A stretch of 41,970 nt of DNA from Actinomycetota bacterium (lineage in GTDB: Bacteria > Actinomycetota > Nitriliruptoria > Nitriliruptorales > JAHWKO01), in contig JAHWKW010000024.1 of NCBI GenBank assembly GCA_019347675.1, positions 1-41,970 of the forward strand, written 5' to 3'. The stretch's first letter is position 1; every line of letters begins with the position of its first letter. The position numbers and the translations under genes are program-made. Shown here piece by piece: positions 3,051-39,715 of the stretch. Under the pieces are notes generated by a model that had not been told where the DNA came from, did no database searches, and saw only the letters and a list, made by a program, of their open reading frames with translations.

Positions 3051-3162
3051 CGCACCGGCCTCCACGCGACCCGCGTCGCCGATGTCACATCCGACGTGCC
3101 TCGGTGAGGACTTCCTGCACGGAGCCAGCATCGGGACACACCAATGCACTGTCGAAGTGAGA

Positions 3163-3182
3163 CGGGCGGCGGGCACCGCCCG
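3163..3182 (+). other. GC-rich hairpin at the relaxase start
   Basis: CGGGCGG at 3163-3169 and CCGCCCG at 3176-3182 form a perfect 7-bp stem with a six-base loop, ending on the GTG start of the relaxase gene. It could limit translation or belong to a transfer origin, since relaxases often lie next to oriT. No nick-site consensus is recognisable, so the role is open. Confidence 0.35.
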
Positions 3183-11341: not shown

Positions 11342-11487
11342 CCTCGCAGACCCGCAACCCCAGCTGCAACACCACGGCCTGTCCGACCGTGCCGCTGCAA
11401 GAGGAACACAGACTGGCACCGGGGGATGCGGCCTCCCGCCGGACGTCGCGCCGGCAGCGCTCCTGGGCCGGTGACGGCCGATGCTGA
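11338..11487 (+). CDS. Tiny Cys-containing ORF between two coupled genes
   Basis: A 49-residue frame whose GTG overlaps the previous stop by four bases and whose TGA overlaps the relaxase ATG by seven. It begins TSQTRNPSCNTTACPTVPL and ends in a basic, Arg-rich tail. Double overlap suggests a translated gene that couples the relaxase to the operon, either as a leader or as a small zinc-binding protein. There is no homology to lean on. Confidence 0.45.
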   Translation: MTSQTRNPSCNTTACPTVPLQEEHRLAPGDAASRRTSRRQRSWAGDGRC

Positions 11488-20332: not shown

Positions 20333-21588
20333 GCCGCTGCCTCCTCGGCCGGTAGGCGAGTGCGGCCGGTGAGGAGCTCCTGCATCATCCCGCGCTTGAC
20401 GTCACGCGTCTTGGCGAGTCGTCGCTCTAGGGCGTTGATCTCGCTATCCATGTCGGTGAGGACCTCGGCAACTGAGTCCTGTTCTTCTCGTGTGGGGAGG
20501 TTGACTTCCAGGCTGCCTAGAGCACGTGCGTTGATGTGGACGACAGCATCGCCTTGACCGAGCCGTGCCTTCTCAGCGGCAACAGCGGGAGTGTTCAGTA
20601 GATGGCTGAGGAACACCGGGTTGTGGTCGCCGCTGGAGGGGCGTAGTACCACCAGGTCCCCGCCAGCGACTGCAGGACCTGAGCCGACATAGGCGAGGCA
20701 GGTGCCGATCTCGTCTGCAGTTTCGCCGGAGGACGTGAAGAGCAGGTCGCCACGCTGGATCGGTAGCGCGGTGTCCGCAACGTCTTGCGGCACGTAGTTG
20801 TTCAGTGAAGCGGTGTAGCTCCTGTACTTGGTGTAGAGCTCGCCGTAGCGTACGCACGGAACTCCTGCGGATGCCACGTCGTCCTTGCGGATGCCACGTC
20901 CCTTCATCCACTGACCAAGCTGATCAAGCCGATATCTGGTCCACTCCGAACGAGGCCGGGTGAGGTTAGACTGTCCAGCGAACAGTCGGCGTAACGCAGC
21001 CGCCTTCACCATCAGATGCTTGTCGATGAGCCGTTCGAGGGATTCGTTCAGTTCGTCGACATCCCGTAGCGCCCCTGCGATTCGCCGCTGCTCGGAAAGC
21101 TGCGGCAGCGGGACTGGAAGCGACGCGTACTCGCGGCTGTTGATGCCCGGCTGTCCGCTTCTCAGTGACATCCCTTCTACCCAGTCCCAGTAGGGCTTCG
21201 ACCTCAAGTACTGGGACAAGAACTCGGGGTCGAGTTTGCGGTCGTCCACCCGCACCTGGATGAGGAAGCCGGCGTACACCAGACGCCCGTCCTGGGGACG
21301 ATGCAGGTATGACTTGCCGACGCTGGCACCCGTTCGCGCCAGCAGAATGTCCCCGTACTCCAGGTAGTAGTCGGAAGCCGAAGGATCGCTAACCGAAACC
21401 TTCGGGGCGGGAACGAACCTGCCTGCGTCATCGATGTCAGTGATTCGGATGTAGGTGGGAAGGTCATGCCGGTAGGGCACCGCGGGTGCGTTGATGCCAT
21501 AGGAGGGTGTCGATACGAGACACTCACCTAGCTCGACGATCGGCCAAGGGCAGCGCTCCAACGTGCTCGAGACTGCGGCGCCGGTCAT
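20329..21588 (-). CDS. hsdS: Type I restriction enzyme, specificity subunit
   Basis: 419 residues with the expected two target-recognition domains. The first runs from about 14 to 165 (YIRITDIDDAGRF, GDILLARTGASVGKS, LPVPLPQLSEQRRIAG), then a conserved helix (DVDELNESLERLIDKHLM); the second from about 215 to 375 (CVRYGELYTKY, GDLLFTSSGETADEIG, LPTREEQDSVAEVL) and a final helix. Each domain reads one half of a split target. It overlaps both neighbours by four bases. Recognition sequence cannot be read from the protein. Confidence 0.95.
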   Translation of the reverse strand: MTGAAVSSTLERCPWPIVELGECLVSTPSYGINAPAVPYRHDLPTYIRITDIDDAGRFVPAPKVSVSDPSASDYYLEYGDILLARTGASVGKSYLHRPQDGRLVYAGFLIQVRVDDRKLDPEFLSQYLRSKPYWDWVEGMSLRSGQPGINSREYASLPVPLPQLSEQRRIAGALRDVDELNESLERLIDKHLMVKAAALRRLFAGQSNLTRPRSEWTRYRLDQLGQWMKGRGIRKDDVASAGVPCVRYGELYTKYRSYTASLNNYVPQDVADTALPIQRGDLLFTSSGETADEIGTCLAYVGSGPAVAGGDLVVLRPSSGDHNPVFLSHLLNTPAVAAEKARLGQGDAVVHINARALGSLEVNLPTREEQDSVAEVLTDMDSEINALERRLAKTRDVKRGMMQELLTGRTRLPAEEAAA

Positions 21589-24128
21589 GACGGTGTCTCC
21601 ACATCCAGCATAGCCAAATGCTTGCTCACACGGGCGGAGATCGACTCCGTCTCGTCGACAAGACTTGGGAGTGTTTCGCTGTAGCGGTCGACCAGCTGTG
21701 CGATACGTCGGCTGATCCGTGAGGCCACAAACCCGATCTCGTCACCGATGGTGGAGCGGAGTGTTCCTATCCACTTGCTCTCTACCATCATCGCGCGGAT
21801 TTCTTCGTCGCTCACGTCGTCGTAGGTAGAGGCGACCTCGTTGAGCAGCATTGCTTCGGCTTCGCGGAGGGTGGCCTTCTCAGACGTCAGTGCGTCGTTC
21901 AGAGCGAGCCACCGGTGGAGGACGTCCAGTTCGGCGAAGTAGCCCTCCCCGTCGTGTACTCCGACGTCCCACGGGCGCGTACCGAACTTGCTCTTCGCGA
22001 TGCCCTTCGCCTGCTGGTACTCCGAGCTGTCCTCTGGGAACGCCTCGAGGATCAGGTCCTTGAGTTCGGCGACTCGGTCCTGCGCGTTGCCCTTCGTCAC
22101 GCCGCTCGAACCCTCAAGGCCGTCGAGAGCCTCCCCTTCGACGGCGTGTTCCTCTTCGAACGCCGCGAGCTCCGCCTCGCTCGCCGCTACCGCTGCTGCC
22201 AGCTCATCGAGGCGCTCTTGGCGGTCGGGGAAGTAGCGACGGATGAGCAGATCAGGCGGCAGGAGGTCAGCCACGTACTTGATCTTCTTCCGGCCCTGCT
22301 TGAGGGAGAAGTCCTCGGTCTCGTTGTCGCGCGCCTCCCTAAGCACCCCGCCCACCTGCCAGCCCTCGGCAGCGATGAGGTAGACGTCGTCCTGCATCTC
22401 GGTGTCCCAGAAGTCCATGAACCGCTGGTAGATGTCGTAGCGACTGATCAGCGGGACGTCGGCGAAGCGGTCGAGTAGGTCATCGGCCAGTTGAATCCGC
22501 AGTTCCTTCGGCGACGTCTCCTCATCGATGGACATCAGCATCTGTCGGTGCGCTTCGTCCCACTCTTCGAACGTCTGATGGACGTTCGTGGCGAACGCCT
22601 GGAACTGAGCGTGCGACTCAACCGTCTGGCGAACCTTGTCGGCATCTACGGCCGGCTGCAGATAGCCGTCGCGACCAGCGGGCTCGAACAGCACGGAACG
22701 CAGGTCAGGCATGACCTGCCAGTATCGGTCGAGGTCGTCGACGTCCCGCCGGGGGATGCCGCCTTGCAGGTGGGCGGTGAGGTCTTGGATGTCCTCGGGT
22801 TCGCTGGAGTCGATGTAGCGGGAGATGTTCAGGTTGTAGTCGTTCACCTCGCTGGCGATCTCCTCCAACGGGACCAGCCGCGAGTAGCCGTCGATCTCTC
22901 GCTGAGTACGGAAGACGTCGACGATCTTATGGATGTCCTGTTCACGGAGCCGGTTCTTGTTGCCGTCCTTGATGTAGCCGCGGCTGGCGTCGATGAGGAA
23001 GACGCCTTCGCGCGTGCCCGCCTCCTTCTTGTCGACGACAAGGATGCAGGCGGGGATGCCGGTGCCGTAGAAGAGGTTGGCCGGCAGACCGATAACGCCC
23101 TTTATCAGGCCGCGCTGAAGCAGGTTGCGGCGGATGACCGCCTCGGCGTTCCCACGGAACAGGACGCCATGCGGGAGGACGACCGCGCCGGTGCCTGTGC
23201 TCTTCAACGACTTGACGATGTGCAGCAGGAAGGCGTAGTCGCCGTTACGGGTGGGAGGGACGCCGTACTCGAACCGGTCGTAGTCGTCGTTCTTGGGGTC
23301 GATGCCGTTCGACCAGGACTTTGTTGAGAACGGAGGATTCGCGACGACGAAGCTGAAGGTCTTCAGTCGGCCGTTCTCGGTGAACTCCGGGGAGGCGATG
23401 GTGTTGCCGTGGCCGATCTCGGCGGTGGGCTGGCCGTGGAGGATCATGTTCATGCGTGCCAGCGCCCAGGTGGCGTGGTCCATCTCCTGGCCGTAGATAG
23501 TGATGCTGCCGCCGGCTTCGTCCCCGGCCTTCACCAGCAGAGAGCCGGACCCGGCTGTGGGGTCGTACACGGTGTCGTCCCGGGTGGTGTGCGGTCCGAT
23601 GCCGATGACCTGGGCGATGATCCGGGAGACCTCGGCGGGGGTGTAGAACTGTCCTTTGCTCTTGCCGGCCTCGGTGGCGAAGTGCCGCATGAGGTACTCG
23701 TAGGCGTCGCCGAGGAGGTCGTCGCCGGCAGCGAGGTTGTCGCTGAAGTCGAGCCGTCGGTGGAAGATGTTGACCAGCGCAGACAGTCGGTCGACCTTGT
23801 CCTTGCCGCTGCCGAGCTTGGCGGAGTCGTTGAAGTCGGCTAGGTCGATGACGCCTTGCAGGTCGTTGGCTTCGGCGAGACAACCGATCGCCTTGTTGAT
23901 CCTGTCGCCGATCTCCTTGTCGCCGACCAGACTGTGGATGTAGTCGAAGGAGCCCTTCTCCGGGACGACGATGAGGCTGTGGGGGTCGGCGGCGTGCTTG
24001 TCGGAGACGTACTTCACGAACAGCAGCGTCAGGACGTAGTCCTTGTACTGGGAGGCGTCCATGCCGCCGCGGAGCTCGTCGCAGCTGTCCCAGATCGACC
24101 GGTACAGCTCGGACTTCTTGATCGCCAT
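21585..24128 (-). CDS. hsdM: Type I restriction enzyme, N6-adenine methylase subunit
   Basis: 847 residues. The N-terminal HsdM helical domain (YVLTLLFVKYVSDK) is followed by the methylase core with SAM motif DPTAGSGSLL (189-198) and catalytic NPPF (264-267). The GQFYTPAEV signature at 159-167 is typical of HsdM. Beyond about residue 480 there is a long extension: a helical part with DEAHRQM and a late coiled coil, making it several hundred residues longer than the classic 500-residue form. Extended HsdM proteins exist in actinobacteria. It is the first gene of the operon; its promoter should lie in 24,129-24,349. Confidence 0.95.
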   Translation of the reverse strand: MAIKKSELYRSIWDSCDELRGGMDASQYKDYVLTLLFVKYVSDKHAADPHSLIVVPEKGSFDYIHSLVGDKEIGDRINKAIGCLAEANDLQGVIDLADFNDSAKLGSGKDKVDRLSALVNIFHRRLDFSDNLAAGDDLLGDAYEYLMRHFATEAGKSKGQFYTPAEVSRIIAQVIGIGPHTTRDDTVYDPTAGSGSLLVKAGDEAGGSITIYGQEMDHATWALARMNMILHGQPTAEIGHGNTIASPEFTENGRLKTFSFVVANPPFSTKSWSNGIDPKNDDYDRFEYGVPPTRNGDYAFLLHIVKSLKSTGTGAVVLPHGVLFRGNAEAVIRRNLLQRGLIKGVIGLPANLFYGTGIPACILVVDKKEAGTREGVFLIDASRGYIKDGNKNRLREQDIHKIVDVFRTQREIDGYSRLVPLEEIASEVNDYNLNISRYIDSSEPEDIQDLTAHLQGGIPRRDVDDLDRYWQVMPDLRSVLFEPAGRDGYLQPAVDADKVRQTVESHAQFQAFATNVHQTFEEWDEAHRQMLMSIDEETSPKELRIQLADDLLDRFADVPLISRYDIYQRFMDFWDTEMQDDVYLIAAEGWQVGGVLREARDNETEDFSLKQGRKKIKYVADLLPPDLLIRRYFPDRQERLDELAAAVAASEAELAAFEEEHAVEGEALDGLEGSSGVTKGNAQDRVAELKDLILEAFPEDSSEYQQAKGIAKSKFGTRPWDVGVHDGEGYFAELDVLHRWLALNDALTSEKATLREAEAMLLNEVASTYDDVSDEEIRAMMVESKWIGTLRSTIGDEIGFVASRISRRIAQLVDRYSETLPSLVDETESISARVSKHLAMLDVETPS

Positions 24129-24349
24129 CTATCAAACCCCCGATACGTCAACTGAGGGATCGCGCTCCGACTGGTCCGAGCTACGCGATGCAGCCCTCAC
24201 ACCCGATCCGGCGTACGGTCTCGAGTGCGTTCGCCGCTCGGACGAGAACCAGACGCCAGGGCTGGTCTCAACCGTAGGCGGTAGCTCCAGGACACGGCTC
24301 TGAGAGCCAGGCGTGCCTGCAGGTGGGCCGCGCAGCGACGTGAAGATCA

Positions 24350-24982
24350 TCACCGGGCCTGCCTCCGTCCAGCTGCCGTCGTCCGTGTCGGCAGACGCCT
24401 CGGCTCGGAGCGCAAGCCGGGAACGTCGATCACGGCGAGGTCGATCTCGAGCTTTCGCAGTTCGCTGACCGCATCCGCGAGCCGCTCCAGGTCGAGGTGG
24501 ATGCGGTCAAGCTCCGAGACGGCGTCATGCGCCCGATCCTGGTGGCTCAGGGCCGGCACCGGAACCTGCAGCTGTGCGAGATCCCGCGAGGCGATGCGCC
24601 GTATCCCCGAACCGCTGGCTCGCACCTCGACCTGATCCCGGAAGTACGACGAGCGAACCCAGAGTCCAAGCCAGTCGGATGTGACTGGACCTCCGGCTAG
24701 CGCACGCAGGACCACGCAGTCGCTACCGACTATCGCGCCACGAAGTTCCTCATCGACCACCCGTGCAGCTGCAGGCCTGAAAGAGACCGCGACAACGATG
24801 TCCCCCGGCTTGAGGTCGTACGCCCACCGCGCCTCGGACTCGGGCAGGTACTCGGCCGGCGCATCGTCGTCCGCCAGGGCCTTGGCGTTCAGGAACCTCG
24901 TCCCGGTATCCCCCAGATGGTCGTAGTTGATCCGAACGCCGCGTGTGATCTCCGCAACGGACTGGAGGGGGAGGCGTCTCAT
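24350..24982 (-). CDS. Half-size HsdS-like specificity protein
   Basis: 210 residues with a single target-recognition domain: SVAEITRGVRINYD, then RFLNAKAL, KPGDIVVAVSFRPAAARVV, ASGSGIRRIASRDLAQLQVP, and a coiled helix (AVSELDRIHLDLERLADAV) that would normally bind the methylase or a second copy. HsdS halves can dimerise to make a symmetric specificity unit. The ATG overlaps the stop of the HTH-methylase by four bases, so the two form a pair. It differs from the full HsdS at 20,329. The C-terminal 40 residues are basic. Confidence 0.82.
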   Translation of the reverse strand: MRRLPLQSVAEITRGVRINYDHLGDTGTRFLNAKALADDDAPAEYLPESEARWAYDLKPGDIVVAVSFRPAAARVVDEELRGAIVGSDCVVLRALAGGPVTSDWLGLWVRSSYFRDQVEVRASGSGIRRIASRDLAQLQVPVPALSHQDRAHDAVSELDRIHLDLERLADAVSELRKLEIDLAVIDVPGLRSEPRRLPTRTTAAGRRQAR

Positions 24983-26550
24983 GTTGAACCTCCCACAACC
25001 TCCTGGAGCATGTCGAGCGCGCGACGAACCTTCGGCAAGTCCTCATCGATGCCGGCCCTCAGTTCGGCGGCACGAGCCCGAAGGTCATCAACGTCGAAGC
25101 TCTGGATCGGGTCTCTACACCGGCTCGGGGTGATGACCGAGTCCTCCAGATCTACTCGCGACAACCGGAAGGCTCGACCCGAGTGCTCCTTGGGGATCGG
25201 GTCCCCGGATCGAGCGAGGTGCACCAAGTCAACGATCATGTCGATCTCACGCTCCCCAAGCTCCGTTTCGTGGCGCCCGGCCGTGCCCAGGTCCGACGCA
25301 TCAACGAGAAGGATCTCCTCTTGGCTCGCTTGTCTCCGTTCGGGAGAACGCAGAAGCCAGATGGTCAACGGGATCGACGTGTTCCGTCGTAGGCGCTCCG
25401 GAAGTTGGATGACACCTTCGATGCAACCATCGTCGAACATCCCGGCCCGGATCTCGCCTTCGCGGCCTCCTGACCAGGTCGACCGCGGCGGCTGGAGAAC
25501 GACCGCTCGGCCTCCAGGGCGGAGCGCATGCAGCGCAGTCTGCAGCCACGCGAAGTCCGCAGAGCTCGGAGGGGGCGCGCCATATGTCCAACGGTCGTCA
25601 AGATAGAGCTCGGCGTCACCCCACTTCCCCACTCCGTATGGCGGATCGAGGAGGACCGTGTCGGCGGACGGCAGGTCTTCGAGCGGTATCCTTAGACTGT
25701 TGTCCACGCGTAGATCCCCATCGACGTCGTAGATGAAAAACCAGGCTCGAGCGTGCCGGATGACGTCCTGGTTGATGTCCACTCCGACAAGAGTCGTCGG
25801 CGGCTCACCCCTCTCCGCGGCGACCGCCGCCATGAGAAGCAACCCGCCGTTGCCTGCGGCAAGGTCCGCGACGGTCTCGCCCAGCGGCTCGGCCAGCCGG
25901 ACCATCAGAAGGGCGAGGTCGTCAGGTGTCGAGTAATCCTGCGCGAAGCGATCTGCACGGTTCATGCGGTCGGTGAACTCATGGAAGAGCTCAACGTCAG
26001 CGGCCTCCTCAGACAACGCTGCGCGCAGCGCGACCAAGAGCTGTCGGACGGCGTGCCCTGGTGCCTCCGTGACCGAGAACCCGTCCACAAGGAGGCCCTG
26101 GAGTGGCGGGTTGCTCTCCTCCAATCGACGTCCGATGGCAACGAGTCGATTCAGCAGCTGCTCGTCGGCAACATCTTGAACTGACTCCCATCGGTCCTCG
26201 TCGGCGATGTTGAGTCGACCCTTCGCCGCGCGCTCACACGCTACGAGGTACACGAGCGCTGACAGCATGAAGTGCCGGAGTTCCTCAGGCGTCCAGCTCC
26301 TGCGGACCACGTCGGCGATCCGCCACAGCACGGCACTCGGTGGGACAGGGCCACTGATCTTGCCGTTCTCGACGAGCCACCGCTCGACCTCGGCGAGTGA
26401 GAAGAGTGCGCCTCCCGCGCTCTGAAGTCTCGGGGGCGGGAAGTCTTCGTGGCGCTTCCGCCAGTTCGACACGGCGGAAGAGCCGACACCAGCAATCTCC
26501 GCGACGTCACTCAGGCTGACGTAGACAGCATCTACGGCATCGCGCGCCAT
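24979..26550 (-). CDS. N6-adenine DNA methylase with N-terminal HTH
   Basis: 523 residues. Residues 10-65 are a helix-turn-helix (VSLSDVAEIAGVGSSAVSNW plus FSLAEVERWLV), about 70-200 a helical linker with EFTDRMNRADRFAQDYSTPD just before the core, then the methylase: motif I is DLAAGNGG (229-236), altered from the usual DPACGSGG, and motif IV is DPPYG (302-306) with LLDPP intact. The altered motif I keeps the glycines and may still bind SAM, but activity is not certain. It is coupled to the NYN gene upstream and the half-HsdS downstream. No R subunit is attached to this pair, so it may methylate for self-marking or act as a sensor. Confidence 0.87.
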   Translation of the reverse strand: MARDAVDAVYVSLSDVAEIAGVGSSAVSNWRKRHEDFPPPRLQSAGGALFSLAEVERWLVENGKISGPVPPSAVLWRIADVVRRSWTPEELRHFMLSALVYLVACERAAKGRLNIADEDRWESVQDVADEQLLNRLVAIGRRLEESNPPLQGLLVDGFSVTEAPGHAVRQLLVALRAALSEEAADVELFHEFTDRMNRADRFAQDYSTPDDLALLMVRLAEPLGETVADLAAGNGGLLLMAAVAAERGEPPTTLVGVDINQDVIRHARAWFFIYDVDGDLRVDNSLRIPLEDLPSADTVLLDPPYGVGKWGDAELYLDDRWTYGAPPPSSADFAWLQTALHALRPGGRAVVLQPPRSTWSGGREGEIRAGMFDDGCIEGVIQLPERLRRNTSIPLTIWLLRSPERRQASQEEILLVDASDLGTAGRHETELGEREIDMIVDLVHLARSGDPIPKEHSGRAFRLSRVDLEDSVITPSRCRDPIQSFDVDDLRARAAELRAGIDEDLPKVRRALDMLQEVVGGST

Positions 26551-27032
26551 CAGGCCACCCTCCCTTCCGCTGCGGGGGCACCCGGGTCGCCATCCAGATG
26601 GAACGGCACGACGCGGTGCGCCGCCATCCTCAACCTCCGCAAGAGACTCTCGGGGGGAGCCCCAACCGCGATCGTCACACAGCGACGCTGGAGGGAGTCA
26701 ACGACGTCGACGAGCAAGCCGTCCCCGGAGGCAACCACAACCTGATCGAAGCGGGACTCCACGCGTTCGCGAAGTGCCACATCGACGAGGGGCAGGTCCG
26801 CACCGGAACTCCCACGCCGGACTATGAGCCGTGCAGACCGCCAGCTCAGGCCCACCGACACACCGATCGCGGGGTTGCACGCGACCACGATGACGTCGTC
26901 TTCGCGTAGGACCCCAAGTTCTCGGTACGCACCCATGCAGCGGGCGACATTGCGACGGGTGGGCGAGTCGGAGCCGAGGAGGTTCTCCACGTCGACCAGG
27001 TGAAGACTTCTGGGAGCAGTTGAAGTATCCAT
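26550..27032 (-). CDS. NYN/PIN-like nuclease-domain protein
   Basis: 160 residues from the ATG at 27030-27032; a longer frame adds 20 residues through the control region. The NYN pattern is present: HLVDVENLLG (Asp14, Asn17), GADLPLVDVALRERV (Asp79), and VVVASGDGLLVDVVDSL (Asp104, Asp109), with beta strands between. NYN domains are PIN-fold metal-dependent ribonucleases. Its end overlaps the methylase start by one base (TGATG). Placed first in the leftward arm of the divergent cluster, it is a candidate effector that cuts RNA when the system is triggered; that role is inference. Confidence 0.8.
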   Translation of the reverse strand: MDTSTAPRSLHLVDVENLLGSDSPTRRNVARCMGAYRELGVLREDDVIVVACNPAIGVSVGLSWRSARLIVRRGSSGADLPLVDVALRERVESRFDQVVVASGDGLLVDVVDSLQRRCVTIAVGAPPESLLRRLRMAAHRVVPFHLDGDPGAPAAEGRVA

Positions 27033-27058
27033 GTCGTGAACAGTACCATGGCAGAGCC

Positions 27059-27103
27059 GTGATGTCACCTCACGCTGCTGAATCAGCCTCACACCATGTG
27101 AGG
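27059..27103. promoter_or_regulatory. Operator-like palindromes in the divergent control region
   Basis: Three related sites: GTGATGTCAC (27,059-27,068), CCTCAC (27,068-27,073), and the palindrome CCTCACACCATGTGAGG (27,087-27,103, 6-bp arms). The two CCTCAC copies are 19 bp apart, close to two helix turns. They lie between the divergent starts at 27,032 and 27,182, so one bound regulator could control both arms. A possible -10, TACTCT, follows at 27,104. Confidence 0.55.
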
Positions 27104-27181
27104 TACTCTATCCAGCGATGTCCCCGCCCCAGGTGTCCGGCGACGTCACAGGGTCAGGGCACGCTGACGAGATGGAGGTTT

Positions 27182-28000
27182 ATGGTGGTCGAGCTCCGCG
27201 GTCGCGAACCGTTACTCGGCGGTGCCACGCTGTTCGGGGCCACCCTCGATCTTTCGGACCTGACGTGGCTGACGCCCTTCGACACGGTGAGCCTCGCTGC
27301 CTACGCGATGCGGTTCTCGGTGCGCGAACGCTCCCTCGACGTCATCGGTCCGTCGGATGACCGCGTCCGGGCCTACGTGGACAACACGCTCCTGGGTGAG
27401 GTGTTGGAGCTTCCTTCAGGCAAGCGTTCTCCTGACGAAGATCCCCTTGTCCCCCTGACGCACCTACGGCGCCCGGACGAGTGGGACGACAGGCTGGAGG
27501 AGTTGTGGCCAGCCGTCCGACGTCGTGTTGGCAACTACGAGGTCTCCCGCGCCCTCTTCGACGTCCTCGGTGAGTTGATCGACAACGCGGTGACCCACGG
27601 CCGGAGCGATGTAGGAACCTTCGTGTGCGTCCAGCACTACACCGGTAGAACTTCACAACTACCACCGGGGATCTGGGCGGGGGTCGCCGATGCCGGTGTG
27701 GGGATCCCGCGGCACCTTCGCGGGAACAGCGAGTACGCGGCGATCGAGGACGACCAAGAGCTGATCCGCCTCGCGAGGCGTCCCTGGGTGACAGGGACAC
27801 GTGACCGTCGCGGTTGGGGCCTCGTCGAGGTCTTCGAGGCCGCCGCCGTGACAGGCGGCGGCGAACTCCTGATCCGGTCTGGTCGCGCCGAGGGGCGCTT
27901 CCTGGTCCGACCCGGACGGCCACCCTGGGCCCGCTATCGAGCCTTGCCTCGAGCGGCGGTGGGAACATCGGTGCACGTGCGGATGGATGAACCTGCTTGA
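27182..28000 (+). CDS. STAS-GHKL ATPase
   Basis: 272 residues from the ATG at 27182 (GTG at 27185 is the alternative, with better spacing from GGAGG). The N-terminus (GATLDLSDLTWLTPFDTVSLA) is STAS-like. The C-terminal half is a GHKL ATPase: N-box LGELIDNAVTHG (Glu131, Asn135), ADAGVGIP (170-176) and RRGWGLVEVF as glycine lid. No phosphoacceptor His or membrane segment is seen, so this resembles anti-sigma-factor-type kinases more than sensor kinases. It leads the rightward arm and is likely co-transcribed with the STAS-wHTH gene. A switch using ATP state and a STAS partner is the natural inference. Confidence 0.85.
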   Translation: MVVELRGREPLLGGATLFGATLDLSDLTWLTPFDTVSLAAYAMRFSVRERSLDVIGPSDDRVRAYVDNTLLGEVLELPSGKRSPDEDPLVPLTHLRRPDEWDDRLEELWPAVRRRVGNYEVSRALFDVLGELIDNAVTHGRSDVGTFVCVQHYTGRTSQLPPGIWAGVADAGVGIPRHLRGNSEYAAIEDDQELIRLARRPWVTGTRDRRGWGLVEVFEAAAVTGGGELLIRSGRAEGRFLVRPGRPPWARYRALPRAAVGTSVHVRMDEPA

Positions 28001-28024
28001 CAAAGCGACTACCTTCGCTACGCT
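27997..28024 (+). promoter_or_regulatory. Promoter before the STAS-wHTH gene
   Basis: TTGACA (27,997-28,002), a 16-bp spacer and TACGCT (28,019-28,024). The first box overlaps the stop of the STAS-GHKL gene, so transcription could also begin here for the STAS-wHTH, GHKL and ubiquitin-like genes. Confidence 0.6.
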
Positions 28025-28064
28025 TTCACATACAGCGATGAAAACGCTGGGAAGGAGGCGGCAG

Positions 28065-28625
28065 GTGCGATACCAGTTGGCAGAGGAGCACGGCCAGTTC
28101 CTCGCCACCAGATCACGGGGCGCCCAAGTGCAGGAAGCGCTGATGGCGGCCCTTCGGGATACCCCCGAGGGCGACCACCTGGTGATCGACTTCGTTGGCG
28201 TCGAGGACGTCACCGTGTCGTTCGTTGATGAGTCACTCGGCGGCCTGCTCGGGAAGCGCAGCAACGATGAGACCTTGAGCGCGCGAGGCATCGCGCTCAC
28301 CGAACTCAACCCTGACTGCAGAGACACACTGGACGCTGTTCTGAAGCGTCGTGAGTCCGCGATGGTCGTGGTTCGCCCTGACACGGACGAGCTGGAGATC
28401 GTCGGAGACCGACGGTGGGGCTGGATGCCCGATACTCTGGCTGCAGCTCGTAGGCTGAAGGAGTTTCGAGCGAACGATCTCGCCGACGAGCTGGCCCTAA
28501 CTCCACAAGCATCGAACAACCGACTACGTCAACTCGTTGCATCCGGGGCCGTGGCACGACAGCGCGTGGTTCCAGAAGGCGGCGGCAAGGAGTTTCAGTA
28601 CCGCATCCAGATCCTCGACGTCTGA
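28065..28625 (+). CDS. STAS-like (DUF4325) protein with C-terminal winged helix
   Basis: 186 residues from the GTG at 28065, with AAGGAGG seven bases upstream; an ATG at 28038 is the alternative. Residues 36-65 (GDHLVIDFVGVEDVTVSFVD) carry the DUF4325 STAS-like pattern, normally found beside GHKL ATPases. Residues 120-186 form a winged helix (FRANDLADELALTPQASNNRL, a wing GGGKEFQYRI). I infer a regulator whose STAS part is bound or modified by the GHKL protein and whose wing binds DNA, perhaps the palindromes at 27,059-27,103. Family call good; DNA target is inference. Confidence 0.85.
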   Translation: MRYQLAEEHGQFLATRSRGAQVQEALMAALRDTPEGDHLVIDFVGVEDVTVSFVDESLGGLLGKRSNDETLSARGIALTELNPDCRDTLDAVLKRRESAMVVVRPDTDELEIVGDRRWGWMPDTLAAARRLKEFRANDLADELALTPQASNNRLRQLVASGAVARQRVVPEGGGKEFQYRIQILDV

Positions 28626-28628
28626 CGT

Positions 28629-28656
28629 CTGTGGGCGGCCTACGGGCCGCCCACAG
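28629..28656 (+). terminator. Strong hairpin after the STAS-wHTH gene
   Basis: CTGTGGGCGGCC and GGCCGCCCACAG form a perfect 12-bp stem with loop TACG, three bases after the stop. No T run follows. It may be a partial terminator or message-stabilising element setting the ratio between regulator and downstream genes. Confidence 0.55.
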
Positions 28657-28675: not shown

Positions 28676-29536
28676 GTGACGGTGAACCCGTGGGGAGCGA
28701 AGGTGGGAGTGAGCCTTTCCCCCTCGCCGACCCTCGATGAGTGGGCGCAGTGCGCGAATCGCCTGATCCTGCCTTCATCGATCGGAACCGTCCACGACGA
28801 GATGGACCTCTACTTGTCGGGGCTGCGGTTCCTGCACCCGCTCGATGTGTGTGCGGCCCGACTCACGATCGAACTTGCGTCGCTCGCAAGCGGCCGGGTG
28901 ACTGTTCACGTACCTAGCGACACGGACGTGCACACCTATGGCACGCGGCTCGACCTCTACCAGGATCTGCCCGAGAACGTAGTTCTCACTCGGCCGCCGG
29001 TCCGGATGACGAGACGGAACCACCGCCAGCGCCTGATCGAGCTCACATCCATCCACACCGCTCCCCGCCTGCAGGAGTTCTCGGATCACGTGGCTCAGGT
29101 GGCCGAAGGCATCACTCAAACTCACCGGAGGCTCTTCCGCCACGGGCTGGTGGAGGCCGCCGACAACGTCATCGAACACGCAGCCAGTCCCGTCGGAGCG
29201 CTTGTCTCCGCTCAGCGTTACCGCGGTCGTCTCGAAATCGCCGTCGTCGACGCGGGGCGGGGTGTCCGCGCGTCGCTCCGGAGTCGTCGCAAGTATCAGG
29301 GGCTAACGGAGTTGGAGGCCATAACCGCCGTCCTCGAGAAGGGCGCCACGCGACGCGTTGCATCCGGGGGCGGAGGCATCAGTCACCTCATCGAACTCGT
29401 CGAGCGCCATCGCGACGCCTCCATCGAACTGGCCTCCGGCGCTGTGGTCGGACGGATCTCTGGATCGAGAACACCGACATATCGAAGCCCCACGGCTCCG
29501 ATCCCGGGGACGTGGTTCACGCTCACCCTGAGGTGA
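28676..29536 (+). CDS. Second GHKL ATPase
   Basis: 286 residues from the GTG at 28676, which has AGAGAGG upstream; GTG at 28631 lies inside the hairpin and is unlikely. The N-terminal part (LPSSIGTVHDEMDLYLSGLRF and a beta/alpha stretch) looks STAS-like or a degenerate sensor. The ATPase has RHGLVEAADNVIEH (Glu160, Asn164), VVDAGRGVRA (191-199) and SGGGGISHLIELV as lid. It is unlike the first GHKL protein, so the locus has two distinct ATPases. No membrane segment. It is 13 bases upstream of the ubiquitin-like gene, so the two are probably co-translated. Confidence 0.82.
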   Translation: MTVNPWGAKVGVSLSPSPTLDEWAQCANRLILPSSIGTVHDEMDLYLSGLRFLHPLDVCAARLTIELASLASGRVTVHVPSDTDVHTYGTRLDLYQDLPENVVLTRPPVRMTRRNHRQRLIELTSIHTAPRLQEFSDHVAQVAEGITQTHRRLFRHGLVEAADNVIEHAASPVGALVSAQRYRGRLEIAVVDAGRGVRASLRSRRKYQGLTELEAITAVLEKGATRRVASGGGGISHLIELVERHRDASIELASGAVVGRISGSRTPTYRSPTAPIPGTWFTLTLR

Positions 29537-29549
29537 GGAGGAGCATCCC

Positions 29550-29780
29550 ATGAAAACGAAGACCGTCATCAACATCTTCATCAACGAAGCACACTTCAAG
29601 GTCGACAGCGACTCCGCGACGGGCCGGGAACTGAAGGAACTCGCGGGCATCCCCGCTTCGAACCTGCTCTTCCGTGACCTCCCAGGTCAGCAGGAGGATC
29701 CGCCGGTCCCGGACGACGAACCAGTCCCGCTCAAGAGCGGCGACCGGTTCTACGACATGCCGCAAGGCAACTTCGGCTGA
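29550..29780 (+). CDS. Ubiquitin-like protein (multiubiquitin-type domain)
   Basis: 76 residues, the length of ubiquitin, with a strong AGGAGG ribosome site. The beta-grasp pattern is clear: strand TVINIFINEAHFKVD, helix-forming ATGRELKELAGIPASN, strand LLFRDLPG, then PVPDDEPVPLKSGDRFYDMP. These match the bacterial multiubiquitin-type family, here as one domain. It ends in PQGNFG with a bare C-terminal Gly, so it could be activated by an E1 without prior trimming. The next genes are E2-like and JAB-E1, in order, supporting a conjugation role. Targets unknown. Confidence 0.88.
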   Translation: MKTKTVINIFINEAHFKVDSDSATGRELKELAGIPASNLLFRDLPGQQEDPPVPDDEPVPLKSGDRFYDMPQGNFG

Positions 29781-29783
29781 CCG

Positions 29784-30155
29784 ATGCGTTCACTGGAGGC
29801 GGAACTCGAGGCGCTCCGAGGCGTCTTCCCCGGCGCGCACATCGAGACCGTGGCCGGTATCGGACGGGTGTGCGTCGTTCCAGACGTCGCTACTGGCAAG
29901 GCTTGGGAACCACCCACGACCGAAATCCGCTTCCTCATCGCGCAGGGTTATCCGCAGAGCAAACCGGACTGCTTCTTCTCGCGGCCAGACTTGCGCTTGA
30001 AGTCGGGGGCTACACCCCAGAACGCTCGTCCGCAACGCATCGGATCCAGCGAGTACTTGTGGTTCTCATGGCATCTGAGAACGTGGAACCCGGCCGCCGA
30101 TGACCTTACCCGATTCGCACGCTTCTGCAACGGACGCCTCCAGATGGACCGATGA
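29784..30155 (+). CDS. E2-fold protein (prokaryotic E2 family E type)
   Basis: 123 residues, three bases after the ubiquitin-like stop. The pattern fits bacterial E2 family E proteins found beside E1 and JAB genes: an N-terminal helix (LEAELEALRGVFPG), a beta sheet ending FLIAQGYPQSKPDCFF, then SEYLWFSWHLRTWNPAADDL, where WNPAADDL aligns with the WSPA helix of E2 enzymes. Cysteines are at 30, 63 and 115; none is where the E2 catalytic Cys should be, between the GYP region and the WNP motif. His97 in FSWH is a candidate functional residue. It may pass the modifier by another route or only scaffold. Confidence 0.8.
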   Translation: MRSLEAELEALRGVFPGAHIETVAGIGRVCVVPDVATGKAWEPPTTEIRFLIAQGYPQSKPDCFFSRPDLRLKSGATPQNARPQRIGSSEYLWFSWHLRTWNPAADDLTRFARFCNGRLQMDR

Positions 30156-31477
30156 CTGCACTGAGCTATCCCCCCGGCACGTGGCGAGAGATCCAAGAGG
30201 ATCTCCTGTCCACCCCGGAGCTTGAGCGCGCCGCCGTCGGATTCGCCGGCCACGTAACGTCCTCTCGTGGCACCCGATTGCTGCTTCGCGACTGGTCGCC
30301 CGTCCCGCTTGACGAGTACCTCGTTCAACTGGGAACTCACCTCGAGGTAAGTCCTCGGTTCTGGACTCGGGCAGCGAAACGGGCGCGGAACTCTGGTGAG
30401 TGCATCGTCATCATGCACAGCCACCCGAGAGCGCAAGGCACGCCCCAGTTCTCAGCATCCGACCTGGGCGGGGAACGGCTGCTGGTTCCCCGTCTCCAAG
30501 CCAGGGCCACGGTGCACGTGGCAACGGTCGTCATCGGACCGGACGGAGCCCAGGCATCACACTACGCACCGAACTCAAAGCAACGACGCCCGCTGGCGCT
30601 CAGGCCCGTGGGGACATTCGAACCAGACGGGGATTCCAGGGGAGGAACCGACGGTCAGGATGCCCGGCAAGTCTTGGCTCTCGGAGCAGCCGGCAACGCA
30701 GTCCTAAGGGACCTCGTCGTCGGGGTCGTGGGCCTGGGCGGTCTGGGCTCTCACGTGTCCACCCAGCTCTCACATCTCGGCGTGCGACGCATAGTCGGAG
30801 TCGACTTCGACCGTGTGGAGCCGTCCAACCTGTCGCGCCTCGTCGGGAGCCGTCGACGAGATGCGCTCCTGAGACGCCGCAAGACAGCGGTTGGACACAG
30901 GGTCGCACGCCGTCTCGGTGCGGGGTTCAAGCCCATCAACGGCCGCGTTGAGGATCCGGCCGTCGCGCGGGAGCTGTTGGAGTGCGACGTCGTGGTGGGG
31001 TGTACCGACAACCAGTCAAGCCGCGCGGTCCTGAACCGACTCGCCCTGCAGTTCTACGTTCCTGTTCTGGACCTGGGTGTTCAGATACGTCCGGGCGGGT
31101 CGTCGGGTGGCCGGGCAACTTGGCTCTTGCCCGACAGCCCCTGCGAGTGGTGTCGCGGCATCCTCGATCCTGACGTTGTGAGGGCGGAGCAGCTACCCGC
31201 CCATCTCCGCGAGGTAGAGCTCGAGCGGGGATACATCGCCGACATGCCCGTCGATCAGCCAGCGGTCGTCAGCGTAAACGGCGTCGTCGCAAGTCTGGGA
31301 GTTACCGAGCTAGTAGCCCGTTGCACAACAGCGCTCGGTGACAACCGCGGTGAGATGCTCGTCTACCGCCTTGGCGACGGGACCGTCCGACGTGTGGGCG
31401 CGGCTTCTCGTCGCGACTGCGCTACCTGTAACCCATCAGGCAACCTAGGTGCCGGGGATCTTGTCGAGCTTCTCTAG
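30152..31477 (+). CDS. JAB-E1 fusion: isopeptidase and activating enzyme
   Basis: 441 residues, coupled to the E2-like gene by ATGA. The N-terminal JAB/MPN metalloprotease (about 1-150) has the JAMM motif HSHP (89-92) with Ser101 and Asp104, spaced two residues wider than the standard form, and Glu25 as probable catalytic acid. The ThiF/E1 domain (about 180-430) has GVVGLGGLGSH (191-201), the Asp218/Asp220, Asn226 and Arg229 adenylation cluster, GCTDNQSSR (283-291), and zinc Cys pairs 331/334 and 423/426. The fusion would charge and remove the same modifier. No convincing separate E1 catalytic Cys loop is apparent. E1-JAB fusions occur in bacterial ubiquitin-like operons. Confidence 0.92.
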   Translation: MTALSYPPGTWREIQEDLLSTPELERAAVGFAGHVTSSRGTRLLLRDWSPVPLDEYLVQLGTHLEVSPRFWTRAAKRARNSGECIVIMHSHPRAQGTPQFSASDLGGERLLVPRLQARATVHVATVVIGPDGAQASHYAPNSKQRRPLALRPVGTFEPDGDSRGGTDGQDARQVLALGAAGNAVLRDLVVGVVGLGGLGSHVSTQLSHLGVRRIVGVDFDRVEPSNLSRLVGSRRRDALLRRRKTAVGHRVARRLGAGFKPINGRVEDPAVARELLECDVVVGCTDNQSSRAVLNRLALQFYVPVLDLGVQIRPGGSSGGRATWLLPDSPCEWCRGILDPDVVRAEQLPAHLREVELERGYIADMPVDQPAVVSVNGVVASLGVTELVARCTTALGDNRGEMLVYRLGDGTVRRVGAASRRDCATCNPSGNLGAGDLVELL

Positions 31478-33169: not shown

Positions 33170-34420
33170 TCAGCCCATCCGCGCGTCGGTGTCGACGAGC
33201 GTCCGCTCGATGCCGCCGCCGAGGACGTGCTCCACGAGGAACGAGCGGGCACCGACGCGCCACAGCCCGACGCCACGACCGAGCTCCGGCAGCACCTCGG
33301 CCTCGACGTCGGTGAGGCCGAGTAGCTCCGAGGCCCGCTCGGTCTCGGCGGGCGACTGTCCGTAGATGACTCGGGTCTCGGAGTCGGCGAGCAGGCCCTG
33401 AGCGAGGGCGACCTGCTCGGAGCCCTCGGCGCCGGCGGCCTGCAGGTCGGACAGGCGGTGGATCACCGCGACGTTCGCCACGCCGTACTGGCGGGACAGC
33501 TTCCACGACGCCTGGAGCCACCGGGCGATCTCAAGGTGGCGGAGGATCGCCCACGCCTCGTCGATCACGAGGATCAGTCGGTCGTCGCGCCGAGACTGCA
33601 ACGAGGCCTGAAGCCAGGCGGTCGCGCACAGCATCAGCAGGCCCAGCGCGTCCGACCCGTACAGCGCCGACAGGTCGAGCACGACCATCGGTCCGTCGAG
33701 ATCCAGCCCGGACGTCGTCGGGCCGTCGAACATCCCGGCCAGGTCGCCCTGACAGAGGCGGCGCAGCTCCAGAGCTACCTGACGCCCCGCGGCCGCCAGG
33801 GCCTGCGCGTCGGAGGCGACGCGACGGGCCGCATCCTCCGCCGGCCACAGCAGTGCGTCGACGACGTGCGGCAGGACGAGCTGAGCCCCATGTCGCGCGG
33901 CGGCGCTCGTGACGGCGAGCTCGCAAGCGGTCTGCTCCTCCGGTTGCAGCGGTCGACCGAGCGACGAGGCGGCGAGGGAGGTCAGCAGGGAGATGCGACG
34001 GCGGTCGACCTGTGGGGGGTCGGCCGACGCGGACGGTCCGGGTGCCAGCGGGTTGAGGCGGACGGGCAGTCCCGGACCGATGCGAATCGGCTCGACGCCG
34101 CAGGCTTGGGCGAGCGGACCGTACTCCCCCTTGGGGTCAACGATCCACGAGCGGCGGCCGAAGACCTGCTGCCGCCACAGGTAGGTCTTGACGAACGAGG
34201 ACTTCCCACGACCGACCTGGCCGGCGACGAGCATGTTCGGGTTCGTCAGCACGCCCTTGCGGTACAGGACCCACGGGTCGTAGCAGAACGCTCCGCCGAG
34301 GACCTCGCGGCCGACGTAGACGCCGTCGCCGCCGAGCCCGCCCTCGGACACGAACGGGTAGGCCGCCTGCAGGTGTGCCGTCGACACGCGGTGCGCGCCG
34401 GCGCCGAGACCGCTCTTCAT
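33170..34420 (-). CDS. VirB4-like ATPase domain
   Basis: 416 residues from the ATG at 34420, overlapping the SCO6880-like gene by four bases. It holds only the ATPase half of VirB4: Walker A AGQVGRGKSSFVK (66-78), SWIVDPKGEY, Walker B RLILVIDEAW (281-290), and sensor-like LSRQYGVANVAVIHRLSDLQ. VirB4 ATPases are near 800 residues; here the N-terminal half is the separate gene upstream, a common split in actinobacterial conjugation systems. It supplies energy for pilus or channel assembly. Confidence 0.9.
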   Translation of the reverse strand: MKSGLGAGAHRVSTAHLQAAYPFVSEGGLGGDGVYVGREVLGGAFCYDPWVLYRKGVLTNPNMLVAGQVGRGKSSFVKTYLWRQQVFGRRSWIVDPKGEYGPLAQACGVEPIRIGPGLPVRLNPLAPGPSASADPPQVDRRRISLLTSLAASSLGRPLQPEEQTACELAVTSAAARHGAQLVLPHVVDALLWPAEDAARRVASDAQALAAAGRQVALELRRLCQGDLAGMFDGPTTSGLDLDGPMVVLDLSALYGSDALGLLMLCATAWLQASLQSRRDDRLILVIDEAWAILRHLEIARWLQASWKLSRQYGVANVAVIHRLSDLQAAGAEGSEQVALAQGLLADSETRVIYGQSPAETERASELLGLTDVEAEVLPELGRGVGLWRVGARSFLVEHVLGGGIERTLVDTDARMG

Positions 34421-35913
34421 CCAAGCCCCCGAGCCATGGGCAGCGTCCACGTGAATGCCTGGTCCTGCTGGCCGTAGAGGCGGCGGATCTCGAGGAACGC
34501 CTGCTGGGCGGCCTGCTCGATCTCGCCGCACGCGGCCTCGAGCTCGTCATCAGTCTCGGACGTGACGGTCACGTACCCAGCCACGCGGTAGTCGGCGTGG
34601 CCGTCGGCGAGTTCCTGCTCGCGGCGGGTCACGGCCTCCTGGGCGCGGCGCCTGCGTGCGGTGAAGGCGAAGCCGGCCTTCTGGCGCAGTTCCTCGTCGG
34701 CCATGCTCTTGACGACCTGCTGCTCCACTTCGCGGTGAGCGCGCAGCGGCGAGATCGGCTCCATCGTCAGCGACACCGTGCGCATCCCGGCCGTGCCGAG
34801 GAGGAGCGGCGCGAGAAAGTCGGCGCCGACAGACGTGCGCGGCCAGTTCGCGACCCAGTAGGTCGCGTGACAGACGTCGGTGGTCCGGTACGACCCCCAG
34901 GCCGTCTCGGCGGCGAGCGGCCAGGCGTTGGCAGGGTCGGTCCCGCCTTCGTCACCCGCCGCAGCCGCGCGGCGGGCGAGCCCGACGCGCGCGTGCGGGT
35001 CGAACGCGGTCCGCATCGCACCGGCGACGAGGCGGGGCGTCAAGAGTCCGTCGACCACGACCTCAGCCGAGGTGAGGCGACGTCGCAGCGCGCCGATCTC
35101 GCGCAGGAGGATCGCTGCGGCTCCGCGGTCGCCGCCGCCGGCCTGCTTGATCGCCCGACGTGCGCGGGCGGCCGAGATGCTGACGACAAGGAAGGTCTCG
35201 TGCTGGGGCGCCGCAGGGCCAGCGCGGTCGACGAGCTCAAGGTATGACCGCAGCGACGCCGAGCCGCTGTCGACCTTGACGGCACCGGCGAGGTAGCGGC
35301 CCATGGCGTCCCCGTCATCGGGCACCGTCCGTTCCACCCACTGCAGCCGGTGGATGGGAGAGGAAGCCCGGGCAAGCCCGGCCAGGACCGCGCCCCACGC
35401 GGCGAGTCGCCGTTGCTTCTCGGGGGTGTCGGCCAGCTGGAAGCTGCGTCCGCGGACCTGGAGCACGGCGGCATACGTGCCGACGCGGCGGTCACAGATC
35501 ACTCCGACCTCTGGTCCGCTGTCCCCGTCGAGGGGCACGGCCAGGATCTGCACCCCGCCGAGCGTGGCGGGCGGGGCGTTCGGCTTTCCGTCGCTCGTTT
35601 CCCCGAGCACGGGCAAGGCCGACAGGTGCCGGGTGCGCCGAGTGACCACCCGGCCGACCCAGCGGGCGGCGATCGGAATCCATTGTTCGATCGTGCGTCC
35701 ACCGACGTGCCAGAACGCAGCCGCCGCCGCCACGGCCAGCACCGTGGCGGCGGCGACGAACCCCGCGGGTGTGGTCGCCATCCGTATCGTGAAGACGGCG
35801 ATCAGCAGCGCTAGCGCCACGATGGCGAGCTGTCCTGCGCGCAGACCGACGATCATCGTGTCGTCCTCGGCGGCCGAGCCGAACTCGTAGCGACGGGTCC
35901 CGGCGGCGCTCAT
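34417..35913 (-). CDS. SCO6880-family conjugation protein
   Basis: 498 residues with two N-terminal membrane helices (about 28-42 and 51-67) like PrgI/VirB3, followed by a VirB4 N-terminal-like region (VGTYAAVLQVRGRSFQLADT, YLELVDRAGPA, and RRRLTSAEVVVDGLLTPRLV). The C-terminal part has MADEELRQKAGFAFTARRRR and a late Glu-rich helix. The family occurs in actinobacterial type IV secretion sets directly before the VirB4 ATPase, and together they look like a VirB3-VirB4 fusion cut in two. Its ATG overlaps the TrbL stop by one base. Confidence 0.88.
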   Translation of the reverse strand: MSAAGTRRYEFGSAAEDDTMIVGLRAGQLAIVALALLIAVFTIRMATTPAGFVAAATVLAVAAAAAFWHVGGRTIEQWIPIAARWVGRVVTRRTRHLSALPVLGETSDGKPNAPPATLGGVQILAVPLDGDSGPEVGVICDRRVGTYAAVLQVRGRSFQLADTPEKQRRLAAWGAVLAGLARASSPIHRLQWVERTVPDDGDAMGRYLAGAVKVDSGSASLRSYLELVDRAGPAAPQHETFLVVSISAARARRAIKQAGGGDRGAAAILLREIGALRRRLTSAEVVVDGLLTPRLVAGAMRTAFDPHARVGLARRAAAAGDEGGTDPANAWPLAAETAWGSYRTTDVCHATYWVANWPRTSVGADFLAPLLLGTAGMRTVSLTMEPISPLRAHREVEQQVVKSMADEELRQKAGFAFTARRRRAQEAVTRREQELADGHADYRVAGYVTVTSETDDELEAACGEIEQAAQQAFLEIRRLYGQQDQAFTWTLPMARGLG

Positions 35914-38174: not shown

Positions 38175-38471
38175 TCAGCCGACGCCCGTGCCGGCGTTGA
38201 AGAAGAAGTTGATGATCGCGGGGGCTGCACCGATGAGCAGCGCGGCGAGGCCCGACACCATGACGCCCCGCTTCCCTGCCACCGTGTACTGGTAGTTTTG
38301 TGAGTTCGCTCCCAGGGCCCATGCGGCGGACGAGAGCAGCAGGCCGATCAGGGACAAAACGAGCGCCCACCCCATGATCCCGTTGGTAAGGCTCTGGAGT
38401 ACCGCGCCACCGGGTAGCTGTGAGATGTCGGGATTGGCGTCGACCGCCTGTGCGAGCAGTGTGCTGATCAC
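38175..38471 (-). CDS. Small two-TM pilin-like protein (VirB2/TrbC-like)
   Basis: 98 residues with GTG start overlapping the ParA-like stop by four bases. A short N-terminal region is followed by two hydrophobic segments, MGWALVLSLIGLLLSSAAWAL (33-53) split by a basic loop (YTVAGKRG) from MVSGLAALLIGAAPAIINFF (71-90). Such two-TM proteins at this operon position (DUF6112-like in actinobacteria) are taken as VirB2-like pilin or channel subunits. Confidence 0.78.
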   Translation of the reverse strand: MISTLLAQAVDANPDISQLPGGAVLQSLTNGIMGWALVLSLIGLLLSSAAWALGANSQNYQYTVAGKRGVMVSGLAALLIGAAPAIINFFFNAGTGVG

Positions 38472-39715
38472 CGGGCCTCCTCCTTGATGGTTGTGCTGGT
38501 AAACCCTTCTGCGACCGCCGCGGCGAGCTCCACGTAGGCGGCGCGCGTCCGGGCGGAGATCAGGTCGAGTCCCGTGCGCGCGCCTGTTGCGAGGTGTCGG
38601 TCCCAGGGGACGCGCACGACGGTGCGGCAGCGTTCGGCGAAGTGGGCTTCGACCTCGTCGAGGTCAACCAGGCCCTTGCCGGAACGGCAGCCGTTGACCA
38701 CGGCGACCGCGTTGGCGACGAGTTCCGCGTGGTTGTGCTTCTCAAGCCAGTCCAGAAGGAAGCTCGTCGCGCGGGCCGCATCGATCGACGGCGAGGTGAC
38801 GACCACGAGCTGATCCGCGTGGTCAACGATGCCGCGTGTCGCGTCGTCGAGGATGCCGGTCCCGCAGTCCACGAGGATCAGCTGGTAGTGGTGCTCGAGC
38901 AGGTCCAGCAGCCGCCGGTAGTCGCGCTCCCCCAATGCGTTGGAGACGCGCGGATCGTCAGGAGCCGCGACGACCTCCAGGCGCGAGGCGGCCTGGGACG
39001 TGAACGCGCGCATGTCCGCGTAGCGGGTGACGCCGTCGATCTCGTGCAGGAGATCGTCGGCCGTGGCCGGCGTCTCGAGGTGGATTCGATAGCCGAGGCT
39101 GCCCGCATCTGGGTTGCCGTCGAGAGCGACCACCCGGTCGCCCCGATGGCTCGCGAAGGTGTGGCCGAGGTTGACGGTCGTGGTGGTCTTGCCAACGCCG
39201 CCCTTGGTTGAAGCGGTCGCGATGACCCGGCTCCCGCGTACGGAGCCCTTGAGCGTCGCGATGCGCTGGCGCTCCTCCAGCTCTGCCTTGCTGGGCGGGG
39301 GCGTTACCAGCCCGCCGGAGATCCGATGGACTGCGCGCCGCCAGCCGCGAGTGGGCGGCCTCGAGGTGGCGCGGAGCAAGCGATCCTCGCTGATGTCCGC
39401 GGCGGTGAGCCTCGACGTACGGCCGGCCGCCGAAAACGTCGCGCCAGTGCCGAGGGCTACGCCGCGATCGGCGTCCTTGGGCTTGCTCTGCGCCGGTGAC
39501 GGCCGTTCGGGGATGTCGAGGGCCGCAGCAGGTGCGGGTGTGGTGGTCGAGGGGCTTCCGCCGGGGACCGTGCCCGCCGCGGGGGCGGCAGAGGCCGGTG
39601 GCGCGACCTCCGGTTTCGGCTGTGCGGCCTTCCTACGCGGCGTTGGTGCCGGTTCCGTTCGGTCGAGCGCGTCGAGCGGGATCACCTCGTCGACCCTCGT
39701 CTCCGAACTCCCCAT
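38468..39715 (-). CDS. ParA/MinD-like ATPase with Pro-rich N-terminus
   Basis: 415 residues. The first 150 are Pro/Ala/Thr-rich and disordered, then a deviant Walker A STKGGVGKTTTTVNLG (169-184), VVALDGNPDAGSLGYRI and QLILVDCGTGILDD complete a ParA/MinD-type ATPase. It heads the leftward transfer operon, with a GGAGGGAGGG ribosome site. A role in locating the mating apparatus, or in element segregation while it replicates, is plausible. No ParB-like partner is encoded in the window, which favours the first. Confidence 0.85.
   Translation of the reverse strand: MGSSETRVDEVIPLDALDRTEPAPTPRRKAAQPKPEVAPPASAAPAAGTVPGGSPSTTTPAPAAALDIPERPSPAQSKPKDADRGVALGTGATFSAAGRTSRLTAADISEDRLLRATSRPPTRGWRRAVHRISGGLVTPPPSKAELEERQRIATLKGSVRGSRVIATASTKGGVGKTTTTVNLGHTFASHRGDRVVALDGNPDAGSLGYRIHLETPATADDLLHEIDGVTRYADMRAFTSQAASRLEVVAAPDDPRVSNALGERDYRRLLDLLEHHYQLILVDCGTGILDDATRGIVDHADQLVVVTSPSIDAARATSFLLDWLEKHNHAELVANAVAVVNGCRSGKGLVDLDEVEAHFAERCRTVVRVPWDRHLATGARTGLDLISARTRAAYVELAAAVAEGFTSTTIKEEAR

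Follow-up and report, generated by a model that had tools for sequence, protein, structure and literature searches.

A divergent Bub operon preceded by capK-capS-capK genes on a contig of an Actinomycetota genome

Introduction

Bacterial conjugation modules of the E1/E2/JAB type that are linked to defence include Bub (bacterial ubiquitination-like) as well as Bil (BilABCD) and type II CBASS (Cap2/Cap3). The latter two have cysteine-bearing E2s and separate JAB proteins, and CBASS also has a CD-NTase substrate. The papers defining Bub are reportedly Ye et al. 2026 (NSMB) and Gong et al. 2025, and the former is said to propose a non-thioester route. The operon type was described as type 6e by Iyer, Burroughs and Aravind 2006 (PMC1779556), with Synechocystis pSYSX as an example, and its E2 family was deemed inactive there. 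Bub operons are known by the hundreds, and a role in phage defence has not been demonstrated for them (EMBO J 2026, PMC13373217). In the same study CapK/CapS regulators precede the Bub operon in 231 of 443 cases, a restriction-modification (R-M) system lies upstream in 88 of 443, and deleting the N-terminal HTH of CapK had no effect on function. Here we analyze a Bub locus in a 41,970-base stretch of DNA (the window), which is one whole contig of a 3.49-Mb genome.

Results

The folds, the catalytic residues, the gene order, the comparison of Ubl (ubiquitin-like) tails, and the lack of cysteines and of DUF6527 were computed. As the first-pass annotation had claimed, three back-to-back genes occupy 29550-31477 on the forward strand: bubA (29550..29780) is separated by 3 bp from bubB (29784..30155), which overlaps bubCD (30152..31477) by 4 bp. 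Its reading of the three products was also borne out, i.e., a 76-residue Ubl protein ending in NFG (ORF and Multi_ubiq match), an E2-fold protein (matches to Prok-E2_E and to the BubB structure 9eae) and an isopeptidase-E1 fusion (ThiF, a match to the BubCD structure 9ea4 and invariant JAMM residues). Relatives, both plasmid-borne and genomic, repeat the Ubl - E2 - JAB/E1 order, often with a phosphotransferase-like gene and then a DUF6527 gene downstream. Because the profile matches are accompanied by an identical gene order among relatives, chance is excluded, and the locus is almost certainly a Bub operon of Iyer 2006 type 6e, composed of BubA, BubB and BubCD. No relatives were found in the viral contigs and phage records searched, so that within these collections it is not a set of phage genes, and a BubCD search of the host's order and class returned general ThiF/MoeB-like matches only. 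Bil was ruled out, as the window lacks a Cys-bearing E2 and a stand-alone JAB (BilC), and so was type II CBASS, as the E1 is fused to the JAB domain and the E2 is separate. No CD-NTase was present among the window genes scanned, and the PADLOC E1-E2 models matched the ThiF core only.

The locus shares with Citrobacter Bub (9ea4, 9ea8, 9eae, 9d5a) the Multi_ubiq Ubl, the Prok-E2_E protein, the JAB-E1 fusion, the gene order and the catalytic residues, and with Bub operons at large the CapK/CapS regulators and the mobile-element setting. Unlike the Citrobacter protein, however, BubA of the window is a single domain with a bare NFG end and is separate from BubB, and a Cys4 zinc site that is lost in the Enterobacter/Citrobacter lineage is kept. 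The type 6e polyUbl operon (pSYSX) likewise combines a Ubl, a Cys-less E2/RWD protein and a JAB-E1 fusion, but it has two or three Ubl domains where the window has one, and a metal-binding protein that is absent from the window; the fourth pSYSX gene is annotated as DUF6527 (L019). The absence of DUF6527 is a further difference from Citrobacter Bub, and the best BubCD identity of the window within the sampled set was 37%.

BubA (76 aa, ending in ...MPQGNFG) matched Pfam Multi_ubiq with 4.3e-6, over the cut-off, and was on its own too short a query for tblastn or phmmer. The first-pass annotation had let the Ubl assignment depend on a predicted beta-grasp, and the AlphaFold2 model (nine natural relatives included in the input) has this beta-beta-alpha-beta-beta fold with a pLDDT of 90.6. 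Its best PDB matches (Foldseek) were the bacterial multi-ubiquitin proteins 9cd2, 9d5a and 8u38, together with BubA(155-229) from a complex with BubCD. The identity to the BubA of a relative (L092) was 50%. A Gly is found at or near the C-terminus of all 17 aligned BubA proteins; it is terminal in nine, and in the other eight it is followed by tails of 1-4 residues (GGV, RR, HGNH, AA, GA, S, QES and IRR). In the Enterobacter/Citrobacter plasmids BubA and BubB form one fusion protein, whose residue 229 is a Gly (G229); the BubA fragment that was crystallised together with BubCD(D104A) ends at this residue (9ea8 title). Some Bub members thus need BubA to be trimmed before use, and others, that of the window included, do not.

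In the 441-aa BubCD a JAB isopeptidase (about residues 1-150) is followed by an E1-like adenylating domain (about 172-421). The match to Pfam ThiF was 3.5e-26, over the cut-off, and that to Prok-JAB was 3.8e-4, below it. The JAB assignment is nonetheless firm, because residues 29-392 match PDB 9ea4 'Citrobacter BubCD' with 5.6e-27 (phmmer) and the JAMM residues E25, H89, H91, S101 and D104 are invariant in the 24 aligned BubCD proteins; the earlier numbering of His89/His91/Asp104 proved correct on the bubCD sequence. The coupling of E1 and JAB in one chain, to which the first-pass annotation had given weight, stands insofar as the fusion is present, and the tight coupling read from it is plausible; both the fusion and the isopeptidase, however, are general in the published Bub/Iyer type 6e family and hence not special to this locus. 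The same annotation had argued that a bare Gly needs no maturation and that the JAB half is more likely a deconjugase. Comparison lends support to this, since the JAMM motif is intact both where BubA has to be cut and where it already ends at Gly, and the JAB half here probably removes the modifier rather than matures BubA. Alternatively, it might act chiefly as a maturation protease, or be a relic, so that BubA precursors are trimmed in relatives while the domain persists in the window without a major role. Trimming is indeed needed in the family, as the tails past Gly in 8/17 BubA proteins and the fusions to BubB attest, but we regard this option as improbable: the bubA of the window is a separate gene that ends at Gly and the five JAMM residues are intact all the same, as they are in all sampled members with a bare Gly, whereas a catalytic site without use would be expected to decay.

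The adenylation residues of the E1 half (G194/G197/G199, D220, N226, R229, K244 and D286) are invariant in 24/24 BubCD proteins, and no Cys is present in the region where ThiF/MoeB-type enzymes have theirs. The conserved Cys residues of this half are four zinc ligands (about 21-22 of 24) and one in a GCTD motif. The last one, Cys284 (21/24), was considered as a thioester Cys and rejected, as it sits in an adenylation motif shared with MoeB/ThiF. The resemblance to MoeB/ThiF (NCBIfam TIGR02356, 3e-16, far below its cut-off), together with a Cys4 zinc site as in these enzymes, raises the question of whether BubA is a ThiS/MoaD-like sulfur carrier that serves a small-molecule pathway and is adenylated by BubCD, a route that needs no catalytic Cys. 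This is extremely unlikely, however, given that an E2-fold partner is present, that the JAB domain is fused to the E1, that the nearest structures are BubA/BubCD and not ThiS/ThiF, and that no rhodanese or biosynthesis genes lie nearby, where regulatory, R-M and conjugation genes are found instead.

BubB (123 aa) matched Pfam Prok-E2_E with 1.6e-8, over the cut-off, and 9eae BubB with 2.3e-4 in sequence comparison. Its AlphaFold2 model (pLDDT 95.2) found 9eae BubB with a Foldseek E-value of 1.7e-6, and this solved BubB was far ahead of any eukaryotic E2. The 24 aligned BubB proteins are divergent (the relatives share 18-36% identity with that of the window) and have no conserved Cys, no Cys column exceeding 9/24 sequences. 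Cys63, which is present in those 9/24 only, was rejected as the catalytic residue; by the UBC9 match, it precedes the segment that carries the catalytic Cys in E2s. In contrast, S95, H97 and W101 are invariant in 24/24, S95 being the sole column with C/S/T/Y in every sequence, and the Ser95-x-His97...Trp101 motif lies past the last strand, ahead of the C-terminal helix. Since both the E1 and the E2 lack a catalytic cysteine, the pair, as judged from its sequence, is not an ordinary thioester cascade. With Ser95 as the only invariant nucleophile, we favour a route in which BubA would pass from its adenylate to an ester on Ser95 and then to a target amine, and it seems rather likely that BubB carries BubA in this way. 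A less likely but serious competitor is that BubB, despite its E2 fold, only binds, as an RWD-like module without catalytic activity (Iyer 2006), and that BubCD alone moves BubA from the adenylate to amines. The lack of a conserved Cys and the term "inactive" that Iyer et al. (PMC1779556) gave to the family speak for it, but an invariant Ser95-x-His97 and Trp101 in 24 such divergent proteins is beyond what a mere scaffold would lead one to expect. In the BubB alignment, two subfamilies in which Ubl tail and E2 are matched can also be seen: 'DCF' proteins mostly go with a BubA ending in FG or LG, and 'DMF' proteins with one ending in TTEG.

A DUF6527 (PF20137) protein was matched neither at the locus nor in the whole genome (97% complete), and the relatives L092/L093 and L023 likewise lack it genome-wide. 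Among the 24 sampled BubCD systems, it was scored as present beside the operon in 18 and absent in 6; DUF6527 is a frequent accessory of Bub operons, not a defining part. In a tree of the 24 BubCD proteins the six systems without it cluster (0/500 shuffles were as clustered), and the window groups with DUF6527-less and FG-tailed systems with a support of 95/95, in a tree whose long branches leave its exact placement unsure. This clustering and the absence in relatives indicate a recurring sublineage and not a broken copy. An absence from the genome of what 18/24 systems have could also mean that the operon has lost its function and is decaying, but this is very unlikely: all its reading frames are intact and all catalytic residues are kept, and the DUF6527-less systems of L092, L093 and L023, which cluster with the window, have intact enzymes as well. 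Without DUF6527 the Bub pathway of the window might be incomplete or might work otherwise.

The bubA-bubB-bubCD genes make up the 3' half of a unit of six co-directional genes that starts at 27179 with capK1-capS-capK2. The capK1 gene (27179..28000, +) encodes a CapK-like GHKL-type kinase (HATPase_c 0.0019, below the cut-off), and it directly precedes, with a 14-bp overlap, capS (27987..28625, +), which encodes a STAS (DUF4325, 9.4e-6, over the cut-off) plus winged-HTH repressor. The capK2 gene encodes a second CapK-like GHKL kinase (27% identity to capK1, E 2e-8); its ORF opens at 28631, and a GTG at 28676, preceded by the ribosome-site-like agagagg, gives the coordinates 28676..29536 (+). 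A Janibacter plasmid CapK-like protein, whose gene adjoins a CapS gene, matched capK1 with 2.9e-25 (blastp) and capK2 with 3e-13, and was itself matched to Enterobacter CapK WP_001567866 with 1.7e-15. The N-box Asn of CapK, N218, is aligned with N136 of capK1 and N179 of capK2. Likewise, S78 of CapS is aligned with S54, the phosphorylated residue of Enterobacter CapS WP_001567865; the direct comparison of the two proteins gave an E-value of only 0.016, and they are linked through the Janibacter CapS (2e-19; 7e-9). The capS product also matched PDB 9z72 with 0.0047 (phmmer).

As in the published CapK/CapS switch (EMBO J 2026, PMC13373217), a kinase gene followed by a STAS-wHTH gene lies upstream of Bub and near R-M, and the phospho-Ser of CapS and the N-box Asn of CapK are conserved. 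The window differs from the published pair in an extra CapK-like gene after capS and in the absence, by alignment, of the N-terminal HTH of the studied CapK from both kinases. At the place of the ssDNA-contact Trp68 of CapK, which is apparently not conserved, P11 (capK1) and L45 (capK2) are aligned, in a region where the local alignment is uncertain. On this sequence evidence capK1 and capK2 are likened to CapK for the kinase action only, and not for the trigger.

CapS proteins of the window's kind were found in 36 of 396 genomes of the phylum, mostly in one family, and were as a rule directly preceded by a single CapK-like gene. The neighbourhoods opened among the 36 showed, for the most part, chromosomal CapK-CapS pairs close to a gene for a sigma factor or an acetyltransferase, and none of those opened had Bub genes beside the pair. 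In these genomes no second CapK-like gene flanked capS, the second matches being far off, so that the K-S-K arrangement was seen in the window only. The duplicated capK is the sole feature of the locus for which no counterpart was found elsewhere. It is conceivable, but doubtful, that the two CapK-like paralogues around one CapS form a two-input switch for a DUF6527-free, three-protein Bub system with a serine-ester E2 relay. Two side observations concern such pairs. One family of the phylum (L126-L135) has a CapK-CapS-like pair on the chromosome, close to genes for a sigma factor and an acetyltransferase, which suggests a housekeeping branch of the switch. On the Janibacter plasmid (L086:4206-8552) a CapK/CapS-like pair diverges from a small gene and an unrelated gene of the ThiF family; the locus may be one for conjugation or defence that is as yet uncharacterised.

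A perfect palindrome with 12-bp arms, CTGTGGGCGGCC-TACG-GGCCGCCCACAG (28629..28656), lies after capS and ahead of the likely capK2 start; shuffles gave 0 matches even when 3 mismatches were allowed. From its sequence it is a candidate CapS operator, hairpin or attenuator. A 17-bp palindrome, CCTCACA-CCA-TGTGAGG (CCTCACACCATGTGAGG, 27087..27103), lies upstream of capK1 in the gap from which this gene and the NYN gene diverge, and is a weak operator candidate. TTAA-type CapS half-sites, a feature of the published pair, were not apparent by eye in the two gaps.

Upstream of the Bub unit, and divergent from it, are a type I R-M set (17261-24128, -), an N6-methylase with an HsdS-like gene (24350-26550, -) and an NYN-domain gene (26550-27092, -). 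The R-M region (17261-26550, -) appears to hold a second methylase (24979-26550) and a second specificity-like gene (24350-24982). Downstream of bubCD, from 31488 onward, convergent genes encode a VirD4-like coupling protein and other conjugation functions, and a conjugation-region protein at 34417-35913 (-) gave a weak match of the EccE-like kind (type VII secretion). Two TraI/TrwC-type (relaxase-helicase) genes are located at 3082-6903 and 11481-14705 (+), the relaxase match of the first being weak, and ParA is encoded at 38468-39715. This setting fits the published pattern, in which CapK/CapS are flanked by R-M on one side and an immune operon on the other, and Bub is found on mobile elements.

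Discussion

The Bub locus of the window is a divergent yet recognisable member of an already described system, with a few unusual local features. Taken as a whole, it is very probably a CapK/CapS-controlled Bub conjugation operon on a conjugative element; a role of this operon in phage defence is possible, at somewhat less than even chances. We infer that BubA conjugation occurs in the strain, and its regulation and chemistry may be pictured as follows. CapS would repress the operon until a CapK-like kinase, probably triggered by DNA damage or invasion, phosphorylates CapS at S78 and releases the repressor, as extrapolated from the published CapK/CapS. The E1 half of BubCD would then adenylate the ready-made Gly76 of BubA with ATP, and BubA would move to BubB, most likely by forming an ester with the invariant Ser95 and not through a cysteine, and from BubB to an amine on the target. 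Finally, the JAB half of BubCD would strip BubA from its targets; its action in BubA maturation would be needless here because the bubA gene ends at Gly.

If the two-input switch is real, different triggers would act on one repressor, and the tandem CapK genes would add to the knowledge of how Bub-type systems are switched on. The operon is a compact example of Bub, with a single Ubl domain that has a ready Gly end, one E2, one JAB-E1 and nothing further. It offers a clean test of the parts that are needed, because the gene itself bypasses maturation by the JAB half, and deconjugation is thereby separable for study.
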